The notes under the pieces were generated by a model. That model worked only from the letters and a program-made list of their open reading frames with translations, ran no database searches and had not been told where the DNA came from. Both the position numbers and the translations under genes were made by a program. Positions 50,780 through 55,137 of a stretch of 64,000 bases of DNA are shown one piece after another; the stretch's first letter is position 1, and every line of letters starts with the position of its first letter. Source of the DNA: Nitrososphaeraceae archaeon (GTDB taxonomy: Archaea > Thermoproteota > Nitrososphaeria > Nitrososphaerales > Nitrososphaeraceae); assembly GCA_031316115.1 (NCBI GenBank), contig JALDRC010000001.1, positions 310,001 through 374,000 of the forward strand, read 5' to 3'.

Positions 50780-53700
50780 TTAAGGGTAGGGAATTGGTAA
50801 TATAGATAATATATTATTAGGTTGTACGTTTTTGATAGATGGTTTCCCTATAGAATTTGTTGAAGCTTCTGCTGATTTGAGTTCTTTCTGTGTATTCGGA
50901 ACTTGATTATCATTATTCTGTGTTTCTTGACTTAAAGGTCGCTCTGCTTTAAGTTCACTTAAACTATCTTGAGAATTAAATGAGTTTGGTCCTAATACCT
51001 TGATAGGATTTGCGCCTGTATTATCCATAACTTTTCCAAAAGTATTGAAAGCCCCTATAGGATCTCTTTGTTCATCAGTCAACTGTCCAGCCCAGGAGAG
51101 ATCGAGTAGTTGCACCCAGCCAGGATATACATTGGGAATTGCATAGGTTCCTTGTCCACCCATCCCTTTTAATTTGACATTGGAATAAGCCATATTGTCA
51201 TCATTTTCGAATTGTGCATTTCCAGAGTTATCATAAGTTCCGGTCAACAACACAGTTCCCGAAATTATAGCATCCTTTGGATTACCATCGTTATTGGGAT
51301 CGCCGTCAACAACAATAAGTCTATTCGAAAACTTGCTGGTAACGTATGCATAATATCCTCCATCTTTCTTTGCACCAAAGTTTACGCCATGACAACCTGG
51401 ATCACATGGTAAACTTTTTACTACTTCATTAGTATCTGTATCAATAATTGCGATAGTTCCAGTAAGTGTATTCGCTGTAACTACGTATTGACCATTTGGA
51501 CTTACGGAGGTTTGAATAGGAAATGCATGACCTGAAGCAGCAAGATCAATTGTTTTTACTACTCTTCCCAGTTCCATGTCGATTACATTAATAGTATTTG
51601 ACAGAAGATTTGAGACATATGCTCTCTTACCATCCGGCATCATTCCAGTAGATATCGGCATATTTCCGGCATCTACTCTTGATTTGATTTCTCCGTTACC
51701 CGAATGTTGTGTGAAATCAAAAATAGTTGTGTCATCAGTAAATTGATTTGGTGTTATCATCTTGTTCCCATCTGGAGTAATCCAAAGTCCGTGTGGAGAT
51801 GTAGGATTTTGTCCAGCATCTTGAGTAGGGATTATTCGTATCATTTTAAATTTATTTTCATTTTTATCAAATTTAACCTCTGCCACTCCTTGTTCGCCAC
51901 TTAGACTTACATATAATAAATCGTTATCTGGATTAGTCATAACATGTGCAGGGGCATCACCAATTTTCAAATCATCTAACAGATTTCCAGTATCTCGATC
52001 AAAGGCAGTTAATCTATTGTCGAACCATTGAGTTTGATATATTATTTGTTGACTAGAATCACTCCATATATTATGTGGGTTATTCATATTAATCTGAGGT
52101 AATGCTACTTTTCGTTCGACTTGCCAATTTTCTGTGTTGATCATGGTTACAGTACCTGGTTTTGTTTTGGAGTGTGTTTCTTCAAACTGTGTATCTACCC
52201 ATACCTCACCTATTCCTGGATTTCCGGGATGTGTAATTTCCTCAAGTTGTTTATTTGAGCTACCTCCTATTGATTTTAGAAGTGCTTGATCAAGGTAACC
52301 GTTACCAAGATCAGTTTTTATAGGAATATGTGGAAAAGTGAGCTTCCATTCAGGATTATCCTGACTATAATCTAGCCAATTTAAAGGATTATTTGCAATA
52401 AAGAAGATTTTCAATAGTGCAAGAGTCAGTGGATGACTTGAAGGTATTTTTTCTCCTGTACTTAATTCTAATTCATCACCTAAGTCGAGAACATTTTCTG
52501 TTTCTGGATCGTCTGCTATCACCCCACCAAACATGTACGGATGTACTTTACAAGTAAATACATACAATCCTGGTGTTTCTAGTTTTACTATCCCACCTCC
52601 TGAATAGGCAGTTATTTGATCAAAGGGCATGTGTGGGGTCATGTCTGTTTGGGATTGAGGTAAATTTGAAATTTTATTTTCTTTAGTTGTCTCTGGTTTT
52701 TTGTTATCTACTAATTTTTCCATAGGCATATTTTCTGCTTCTGATGGCCACAAAAGGGTTGTAATTGTATGAACGGTGTTTGTATCGTCCATTATAAAAT
52801 GAGCAGTTCCTCCTTTTTCTACCACTCCCAAAGATTCAGTAGCACCTTTCACCAGCTCTCCACCCACATTCTTGAAGAATTTTCCTGGTTCATCGGTAAT
52901 TGAGAATGTTATGAAATTTCCTTGTTTGGTTGGTCCACTGTCTAATGGTGACGCTCCAGGGACACTTTCTGTGTGGCTATCAACTGGTCCTACCTTAAAT
53001 GTTCCCATCATTCCTGCTTCCATATGAGCAAATACATGACAATGATAACTCCAATTACCTACTCCTGCTCGATCACCTGCTTGAATTATAAAGGATGTAC
53101 CTTGGTTGGTAGAAATTAACTTTGTATCTATTATATTGGCTGTTCCCGGATCTACCCACTCATGAGCATGTAAGTGGAATGTGTGCTGATTAGCAGCACC
53201 TAAAACATGAAAACGAACTAACTGATTTAAATCTGCTCCCAAAGTAGGGTTAGTCCATAGGGGTTTCTGAATATGTTTTGAATTTATCTCTTGACCCCAA
53301 AAAGTTGAACCAACCATAAATAAAACATACTGTTTTTCAAGATCTTTTGGATCTACCTCTATAACCTTACCATCTACTTTTGAGGGGATTTTGTTAGATG
53401 AGTCAACTACGATAGCACCAAATAATCCCAAAGTGCTAGAATTTTCTCCGAAATATTCAAAAGACCCTGTTTTTTTTGGTTGGATATTTTGTGTTTTTAT
53501 GTTTCCATTTTCATCAATTGAGGTAAGAATTAGTAAATCATCTGTCTGTATCTCTAGTGTTGGACCTGGTATTGTTGGGAAATTTGGATATCTATAAGTT
53601 AAATCTTGTTCTGAATCATCATCTAAAACTATATGTTTCTTCATTAAGTACCCATATTGACCGTTTTGTAATTTCTTTGCTTCTATTGTAACTTTATGTA

Positions 53701-54052
53701 TACTTCCCTCAACTGCATTTATAGCCTTATTTTCTGCGTCTATTTTTTCAGGATCTATTTTCTTCTGATATGTTTGCTCTGTTTCCGATTTTTTCACAGT
53801 ATAATCTTTCACTTCTAAATTTTTATTGGATAATTTTGATTTAGTCTGCTCTCCCAAATTATCTGGATTTACTTCGTTATAACCCTCAGCATACTTAATA
53901 ATGGGATGCATTCCACTACCATTCGTTTCCTCAATAGTTTTATCTATTAAATCGGATTTATCCACAATTGTTTCCATACCGGTTGTTACCGTAGAAGACA
54001 ACAAAATAATTGTAAAGATTCCGATGATGGTATTATTTTTTAATTGATTCAA
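50780..54052 (-). CDS. Multicopper oxidase subunit fused to a blue-copper domain and a beta-propeller
   Basis: A 1,090-residue exported protein. The signal peptide (IIGIFTIILLSSTVTTG) is followed by a relic of cupredoxin domain 1 (about 155-218: PTIPGPTLEIQTDDLLIL, then TLGLFGAIVVDS) that lacks both HxH pairs. Domain 2 (about 240-355) is complete: His290, His293, His295 (QHTFHLHAH) and His337-Cys338-His339, His343, Met348 (HCHVFAHMEAGM), the latter giving a type 1 copper. A plastocyanin-like domain follows, with His428, Cys501, His504 and Met507 (CKVHPYM). From about 600 to 930 there is a YVTN-type propeller with a His at the beginning of most blades (608, 660, 703, 753, 842, 888). The C-terminal tail is polar. 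It starts at TTG 54,052, two bases after its operon partner, with GGAGGTG upstream. The enzyme substrate is unknown. Confidence 0.85.
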   Translation of the reverse strand: MNQLKNNTIIGIFTIILLSSTVTTGMETIVDKSDLIDKTIEETNGSGMHPIIKYAEGYNEVNPDNLGEQTKSKLSNKNLEVKDYTVKKSETEQTYQKKIDPEKIDAENKAINAVEGSIHKVTIEAKKLQNGQYGYLMKKHIVLDDDSEQDLTYRYPNFPTIPGPTLEIQTDDLLILTSIDENGNIKTQNIQPKKTGSFEYFGENSSTLGLFGAIVVDSSNKIPSKVDGKVIEVDPKDLEKQYVLFMVGSTFWGQEINSKHIQKPLWTNPTLGADLNQLVRFHVLGAANQHTFHLHAHEWVDPGTANIIDTKLISTNQGTSFIIQAGDRAGVGNWSYHCHVFAHMEAGMMGTFKVGPVDSHTESVPGASPLDSGPTKQGNFITFSITDEPGKFFKNVGGELVKGATESLGVVEKGGTAHFIMDDTNTVHTITTLLWPSEAENMPMEKLVDNKKPETTKENKISNLPQSQTDMTPHMPFDQITAYSGGGIVKLETPGLYVFTCKVHPYMFGGVIADDPETENVLDLGDELELSTGEKIPSSHPLTLALLKIFFIANNPLNWLDYSQDNPEWKLTFPHIPIKTDLGNGYLDQALLKSIGGSSNKQLEEITHPGNPGIGEVWVDTQFEETHSKTKPGTVTMINTENWQVERKVALPQINMNNPHNIWSDSSQQIIYQTQWFDNRLTAFDRDTGNLLDDLKIGDAPAHVMTNPDNDLLYVSLSGEQGVAEVKFDKNENKFKMIRIIPTQDAGQNPTSPHGLWITPDGNKMITPNQFTDDTTIFDFTQHSGNGEIKSRVDAGNMPISTGMMPDGKRAYVSNLLSNTINVIDMELGRVVKTIDLAASGHAFPIQTSVSPNGQYVVTANTLTGTIAIIDTDTNEVVKSLPCDPGCHGVNFGAKKDGGYYAYVTSKFSNRLIVVDGDPNNDGNPKDAIISGTVLLTGTYDNSGNAQFENDDNMAYSNVKLKGMGGQGTYAIPNVYPGWVQLLDLSWAGQLTDEQRDPIGAFNTFGKVMDNTGANPIKVLGPNSFNSQDSLSELKAERPLSQETQNNDNQVPNTQKELKSAEASTNSIGKPSIKNVQPNNILSILPIPYP

Positions 54053-54054
54053 TT

Positions 54055-55137
54055 TCAGTTGAACACCTCCAATGGAGATTGACCTTGGATACTTTGTCCA
54101 TTAGAATCGACCACAAAAGATCCTTTCAATCCTGATAATTCGTGCGAGGTTATTGTATCTCTATATTCGGCAATGCCATTTTTTGCTTTAATAGTAAATA
54201 CATGATTTTCGAGTGGACCGAATTTTTTCTGCTTTATTATCTGAGTAGTACCTGGATCAAGCCAGTCGTATCCGGTCAATTCAAAGATATGAAAATCTGT
54301 ACCCATTCCATATAAGTGAAAACGGATTAGGTCACCATCTCTAGCACCTATGGTAGGATTTTCCCATAAAGCCTTATGTTCGGCAAAATTCCTGTAATCA
54401 ATTTCGTCACACCAAAATGCGTCATCTGTAACATAGCATAAAATGTCCTTGCTGATATCTGCAATGTTCACTATTGTTGGTTTCCCGTCAACTAGAGCTA
54501 CAGTTTTTCCTGTATGACTATCTATTACCAGATTACCAAATAAGCCTAATGTTTCTGCCCCATTCATATTCATTCCTGTGGGATTTAATCCCAGTGTATG
54601 ATCATGGTACGGCCATGTTCCAGCAGTTGCCGGACCAGCTGAATAATGATATGTTATAGATTGTCCTGGAAATACACCTTCGTTTCGCAATCCATTAACA
54701 ACTTTTAAAGTTCCGTCACTCGCTAGTGGATAGTCTATTCCGTGAACATGTATCCCAACCATTCCTGGAACGCCAGTCTCTTCTGGATTAGTTAACGTAA
54801 GTTCTACAGAATCACCCTCTTCAATCATCAATGTAGGTCCAGGAATTGTTGGTCCGTTGGAATATCTATCGGTGATATCATTCAAGAGTAGATTTGTTTC
54901 GGGATCGTAAATCTTGTGACTATCAAGTTGATAGGCATATAGATCACCACCTGGTTTTTCAATGGCGTGGACTGATAAATCGATTTTATGGAGTACTGGA
55001 TAAGGATATTCTGTATTTCCATTAAATTCTTCTTGTGAAAAAGCTGTTGTAATGGCAGAAGTGAAATTCCCCAATCCTAATAAAAGAGACAAAATAGTAG
55101 ATAATAAAATAGAAATCGACAGGTAATACTTCATCAT
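54055..55137 (-). CDS. Two-domain multicopper oxidase subunit that keeps only domain 1 ligands
   Basis: A 360-residue exported protein (signal: LSISILLSTILSLLLGLGNF). Cupredoxin domain 1 (about 48-207) has both His pairs for a trinuclear copper site: His130/His132 (IHVHGID) and His178/His180 (TWPYHDHTLG). Domain 2 (about 215-345) aligns well with domain 2 of the downstream protein but has lost its ligands: Glu286 and Thr288 for the HLH pair, and Arg326-Asp327-Thr328 in place of His-Cys-His, with Leu337 for Met; only His283 and His332 remain. Alone it can hold neither a type 1 copper nor a full trinuclear site. It starts at ATG 55,137, 26 bases after a TATA box, and is first in the operon. Homology to nitrite reductase NirK is less likely, because the HxH pairs are of oxidase type. 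Confidence 0.85.
   Translation of the reverse strand: MMKYYLSISILLSTILSLLLGLGNFTSAITTAFSQEEFNGNTEYPYPVLHKIDLSVHAIEKPGGDLYAYQLDSHKIYDPETNLLLNDITDRYSNGPTIPGPTLMIEEGDSVELTLTNPEETGVPGMVGIHVHGIDYPLASDGTLKVVNGLRNEGVFPGQSITYHYSAGPATAGTWPYHDHTLGLNPTGMNMNGAETLGLFGNLVIDSHTGKTVALVDGKPTIVNIADISKDILCYVTDDAFWCDEIDYRNFAEHKALWENPTIGARDGDLIRFHLYGMGTDFHIFELTGYDWLDPGTTQIIKQKKFGPLENHVFTIKAKNGIAEYRDTITSHELSGLKGSFVVDSNGQSIQGQSPLEVFN
54064..54070 (-). promoter_or_regulatory. Ribosome binding site within the end of the upstream oxidase gene
   Basis: GGAGGTG lies 11 bases before TTG 54,052 and inside the last codons of the preceding gene (Glu-Val-Phe-Asn-stop). It supports the TTG start and suggests coupled translation of the two subunits. 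Confidence 0.55.

Follow-up and report, generated by a model that had tools for sequence, protein, structure and literature searches.

Two adjacent genes for exported cupredoxin proteins

The window, i.e. the whole 64-kb stretch of DNA that was analysed, carries two genes, hereafter A and B, that lie side by side on the minus strand with a gap of 2 bases. An earlier reading made from the letters alone (the sequence-only reading) had delimited the same two open reading frames, and both products display a hydrophobic export signal at the N-terminus, as judged from their sequences. A is a two-domain cupredoxin protein. B is much longer and contains, in this order, a dead cupredoxin domain 1, a live domain 2, a third cupredoxin and a seven-bladed beta-propeller; the sequence-only reading was correct on the residues of B but left out the last two modules. 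The features are, from the 5' end of A to the 3' end of B, with the evidence for each in brackets:

54055..55137, minus strand: gene A, exported two-domain cupredoxin protein of 360 aa (PF07732, 45 bits; AlphaFold2 single chain, pLDDT 85.4, pTM 0.81)
54742..54750, minus strand: His130-x-His132 of A, first domain-1 ligand pair (100% of A, 0% of B)
54598..54606, minus strand: His178-Asp-His180 of A, second domain-1 ligand pair (100% of A; in B, first His 41%, second 0%)
54154..54162, minus strand: Arg326-Asp327-Thr328 of A in place of His-Cys-His, dead domain-2 half (ligand comparison)
54064..54070, minus strand: GGAGGTG, ribosome-binding site for B, located in the 3' end of A (11 bases upstream of B's TTG)
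50780..54052, minus strand: gene B, exported protein of 1090 aa, TTG start (profile matches; AlphaFold2 of residues 105-1005, pLDDT 89.1, pTM 0.87)
53348..53704, minus strand: domain 1 relic of B, about residues 117-235 (alignment, segment of the first HxH deleted; pLDDT about 95)
52973..53341, minus strand: domain 2 of B, about residues 238-360, type-1 copper site and domain-2 trinuclear half (PF07731)
53162..53185, minus strand: His290-x2-His293-x-His295 of B, type-1 ligand followed by two trinuclear ligands (residue check)
53009..53044, minus strand: His337-Cys338-His339, His343 and Met348 of B (residue check)
52493..52930, minus strand: third cupredoxin of B, about residues 375-520, plastocyanin-like type-1 site H428, C501, H504, M507 (102/102 homologues)
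51218..52240, minus strand: seven-bladed propeller of B, about residues 605-945, H660, H703, H754, C883-x3-C887-H888 (PF21783/PF10282)

The gene A product is the putative supplier of the domain-1 half of a trinuclear copper site. Its domain 2 has further changes: the HxH pair is replaced by Glu287 and Thr289, and the axial Met by Leu. Domain 1 of B has no HxH pair in the window copy. The two-base spacing had been taken, together with a ribosome-binding site shared by the two genes, as support for equal expression. The spacing is borne out, but GGAGGTG is located in the last part of A and serves B only, gene A having its own GAGG ahead of its ATG; the site is therefore not shared and gives no sign of equal expression.

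The trinuclear ligands are partitioned between A and B

That A and B carry complementary halves of the trinuclear site was the central claim of the sequence-only reading, and every residue named in it is as stated. The partition is kept well beyond the window. We tabulated the ligands of 65 A and 68 B proteins, counting those of the window, against the histidines of L089, a complete relative. The four domain-1 trinuclear histidines are found in 100% of A and in 0, 0, 41 and 0% of B, and the four of domain 2 in 0, 0, 0 and 2% of A and 99-100% of B, so that neither protein holds all eight in a single chain: four are in A and four in B. The type-1 ligands of domain 2 (His, Cys, His and Met) are likewise present in 99-100% of B; A has a Cys-to-Asp change, and it is the pair as a unit that has them. 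The sole apparent exception among the A proteins (L161) is a fragment of a frameshifted B. A separate set of archaeal loci, which overlaps the first in some strains, displays the same partition in 15/15 A and 17/17 B. Note that, at 36-40% identity, every A covering the domain-1 sites keeps all four histidines; as judged from these alignments, complementary conservation at such identity is far beyond chance. Decay into pseudogenes is ruled out by the ligand conservation.

The remainder of each protein follows its ligands in part. Within archaeal B, identity is 0.45 for domain 1 vs 0.70 for domain 2, and domain 1 of A is nearer to the complete enzymes than is domain 2 of A. Within A, domain 2 is conserved as well as domain 1 and must thus have a role, which the model developed below calls merely structural. 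All 15 archaeal A and 48 of the 54 bacterial A have Asp where the type-1 Cys would be. The Leu at the axial Met, which the sequence-only reading had listed among the losses of A, is present but peculiar to the window copy, Met being found in 14/15 archaeal A. With Asp327 (54154-54162) in nearly all A, and the first His and the Met mostly kept, this position may still bind a metal; it is reminiscent of the Cys-to-Asp copper sites that have reportedly been engineered in azurin.

A and B occur as a pair in archaea and bacteria

Adjacent A-B pairs were found in soil ammonia-oxidising archaea, at no fewer than 15 further Nitrososphaeraceae loci, and, by a scan of genome contigs, at more than 50 loci of ammonia-oxidising bacteria belonging to Nitrosomonas, Nitrosospira and Nitrosovibrio; N. 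europaea ATCC 25978 (L126) is one of these. A is directly upstream of B in 63 of the 67 B genes from the contig scan; the other four comprise two at contig ends, a frameshifted B whose A is in place, and a single true orphan, from a Nitrosopumilus bin. When 61 and later 400 genomes of the order were scanned, A turned up only in Nitrososphaeraceae genomes that also carry the long B, and A adjoins B at every Nitrososphaeraceae locus read in the 400-genome scan. No natural A-B fusion was seen in the loci read: each long single chain there is a complete, unsplit enzyme. In Nitrosospira and Nitrosomonas ureae (L103, L117), a gene for a LuxR-type response regulator lies upstream of the pair.

Two cases depart from strict pairing. 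The genome of the window (3.16 Mb) harbors a second A-B pair (L040) plus a third copy of B without A (L039; 4058-7210 of contig C14), 65% identical and with insertion-sequence-like genes nearby. The Nitrosopumilus bin (G252) encodes a long-branch, B-like protein (L067, 2844-5360; L150, 4827-7343) in which very little of domain 1 is left; this bin lacks A, and it also holds a complete single-chain relative (L079). Co-occurrence of the two genes, put forward in the sequence-only reading as a check, holds at nearly all loci with B, but with these A-less copies "never one without the other" is almost, not strictly, true.

The pair is missing from many ammonia oxidisers. Of 125 genomes from the Nitrosomonas family, 72 have A; among the 67 with a detected amoA, just 41 do. 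The pair is therefore accessory and cannot be a universal step of ammonia oxidation. A being also missing from most AOA, the pair is excluded as the universal nitric-oxide oxidase, as sole enzyme, of ammonia oxidisers.

Descent of the pair and its unsplit relatives

In a tree of 71 domain-1-2 sequences, all A form one clade (100/99) and all B another (100/99), each spanning archaea and bacteria, with the complete enzymes elsewhere. The archaeal A and B subtrees mirror each other (distance correlation r = 0.965, Mantel p 5e-5, 15 archaeal pairs). Because A and B are each a single clade, parallel loss in archaea and bacteria is not supported. Note that the tree is unrooted, so that its root and the direction of the split are argued from parsimony.

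Homologues with both halves, which the sequence-only reading had regarded as evidence against a split system, do exist, but they lie outside the A and B clades and are its unsplit relatives. They come in three layouts: a two-domain oxidase gene beside a separate cupredoxin-propeller gene (Methylomicrobium, Methylocystis, Methylothermaceae, Methyloversatilis), a single fused chain in a family taken to be Nitrosopumilaceae, and a free-standing two-domain oxidase. In the methanotroph operons (L158, L160, L164) the modules are homologous to those of the pair and stand in the same order, but the oxidase is complete. The cupredoxin-propeller also occurs alone, without an oxidase half, in Nitrososphaera, Nitrospira, Chloroflexi and Betaproteobacteria (L168, L170-L176; L050, L059, L063); this stand-alone protein has no good family name.

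Overall, the partition, the adjacency, the congruent descent and the unsplit relatives point to a putative duplication with complementary loss. The simplest history starts from a complete two-domain oxidase gene that had a cupredoxin-propeller gene next to it or fused to it. This ancestor would have duplicated; copy A would have lost the domain-2 ligands of both the type-1 and the trinuclear copper, and copy B, fused to the cupredoxin-propeller, the trinuclear ligands of domain 1. This complementary loss would have taken place once and been followed by transfer between archaea and bacteria.

The same data bear on the strongest alternative, in which A and B are two separate pseudo-oxidases, each a homotrimer without a trinuclear site: B would be an electron-transfer protein with two type-1 sites and a propeller, A a copper-binding or structural protein, and no O2 would be reduced. 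Neither chain alone has the full site, as this alternative expects, and the cupredoxin-propeller proteins without an oxidase half indicate that electron transfer without O2 reduction is possible. Left unexplained, however, are the exact complementarity of the four histidines in every A and B, in both domains of life, as well as the mirrored descent and the adjacency, and we consider two independent pseudo-oxidases quite unlikely.

Fold and predicted assembly of a mixed trimer

The best 50 PDB fold matches of the A model are all two-domain small laccases, and the B model matches the same laccases over both domains, plus a YVTN propeller. A and B align over nearly the whole of these laccases, with TM-scores by target of about 0.67-0.76 and 0.59-0.64, respectively. 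That the dead domain 1 of B is confidently modelled as a folded beta structure suggests a place for it in the ring.

Type B two-domain oxidases are trimers in which adjacent monomers build the trinuclear site together, one contributing its domain 1 and its neighbour the domain 2 (PMC13151041); the sequence-only reading had also described the site as shared in this way. Those of S. coelicolor (SLAC), S. griseoflavus and C. japonicus (CjMCO) resemble the pair in having two cupredoxin domains, a type-1 copper in domain 2 and four trinuclear histidines per domain, and type B enzymes are the best fold matches of both A and B; they are, however, homotrimers of one complete chain, whereas the halves of the pair are on two genes, with at most one live site per trimer. 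Indeed, given a trimer and a site between monomers, either mixed trimer (A2B or AB2) would contain a single live interface, the one at which domain 1 of A faces domain 2 of B. All eight trinuclear histidines would meet solely there, forming one O2-reducing site, and the remaining ring positions would be structural.

The treatment of A and B as one unit in the sequence-only reading agrees with their gene order, with their mirrored trees and with the homotrimeric two-domain laccase fold of both. We consider it very likely that A and B together make up one extracytoplasmic two-domain multicopper oxidase as its complementary subunits, forming an obligate heteromer with a single live site between domain 1 of A and domain 2 of B; the enzyme can probably work only when A and B come together. 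Complex formation, stoichiometry, electron path and activity of the pair are what we infer. In geometry, A2B or AB2 would equal the six-domain ring with a single trinuclear site of ceruloplasmin and other six-domain oxidases; ceruloplasmin, unlike the pair, is one chain.

The sequence-only reading had suggested an A3B3 hexamer in which three interfaces would be live and the other three dead. Strict alternation would set every domain 1 of A against a domain 2 of B, but an odd ring, as in the trimeric two-domain oxidases, cannot alternate, and A3B3 would need a ring of twelve domains, which is not known for the two-domain oxidase fold. A dimer of trimers is possible, but it would have two live sites, not three. 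The hexamer with three live sites is, in our judgment, very improbable. Least credible of all is that the partners of A and B are other, complete two-domain oxidases of the cell and not each other: the A-less B copies (L039, L067) do need some partner if active, and the Nitrosopumilus bin has its complete single-chain relative besides the orphan B, but the adjacent pair is co-inherited with congruent trees and more than 60 loci carry both genes.

If A and B do form the mixed trimer, the active site of this multicopper oxidase would be obligatorily built from two different gene products, and the pair would be a natural case of duplication with complementary loss on one metal cluster, maintained across archaea and bacteria.

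Published "MCO3" copies and expression

In PMC12448741, NFRAN_2029 and NFRAN_2030 of N. franklandianus are called "two copies of MCO3" and both rank with the genes most strongly upregulated in biofilm; ferredoxin and ABM neighbours are described for NFRAN_2032/2033. A genome that we take as Nitrosocosmicus franklandianus (G006) has the A-B pair followed by a ferredoxin gene and a 98-aa ABM-like (monooxygenase) gene; the same neighbours occur at other Nitrosocosmicus loci and are absent from the window. NFRAN_2029/2030, members of the AOA lineage MCO3, thus appear to be the A-B pair of this genome, the match being by position and neighbouring genes and not by locus tags. If they are, the "two copies" are the two halves, co-induced, and biofilm genes reported as redundant would be recast as parts of one enzyme. 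The passages of PMC12448741 on multicopper oxidase and MCO3 do not mention complementary ligand halves, and the word "trinuclear" is absent from its text. In N. europaea, two multicopper oxidase genes rise on phage infection, with log2 fold changes of 6.16 and 6.14 (PMC13356812); they may be its A-B pair, locus tags being absent from the main text of that paper.

The sequence-only reading did not know the arrangement as a described system. This stands for the open-access literature searched, in which we found no description of a split or heteromeric multicopper oxidase, nor of a Nitrosomonas YVTN protein, but the Nitrosocosmicus genes themselves are in print. N. europaea and N. franklandianus are both cultured, so the pair is open to experiment; if the heteromer is real, expression of a single gene, the usual route for multicopper oxidase assays, is predicted to give a dead protein.

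Third cupredoxin, propeller and possible function

The third cupredoxin of B has the His, Cys, His and Met of a plastocyanin-type type-1 site in all 102 homologues. In the propeller, His660 and His703 are kept in 102/102, His888 in 100/102 and His754 in 98/102, in addition to a Cys-x3-Cys-His element, and these residues are common to archaea, AOB, methanotrophs and Nitrospira. The propeller, which has one His per blade, looks like a candidate metal site.

Nitrous-oxide reductase was ruled out by both score and ligands. The B propeller reaches 68.2 bits against NCBIfam NF052460 (clade III, lactonase-type N2O reductase), whose cut-off is 700, and five relatives score 25.7-45.6 bits, also below it. 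The third cupredoxin has a single Cys and is thus not a CuA domain; in place of a two-Cys CuA and seven propeller histidines, B has one Cys and 4-5 conserved propeller histidines.

Within the predicted heteromer, electrons would pass from a docked donor, or perhaps from a substrate bound at the propeller, to the third cupredoxin, then to the type-1 copper in domain 2 of B and on to the shared site. The heteromer might be an oxidase specific to ammonia oxidisers and methanotrophs, with the propeller metal oxidising NO, HNO, hydroxylamine or another small substrate, the third cupredoxin relaying the electrons and the split site reducing O2, with a single live site per trimer leaving room for the propeller. 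We offer this function tentatively and think it unlikely in this full form. The link of the pair to ammonia oxidisers and methanotrophs, as well as the attached cupredoxin-propeller, would point to an oxidation reaction in nitrifiers that is still without an assignment.

The window copy of the propeller has lost a further histidine, at position 756, which is now Leu.
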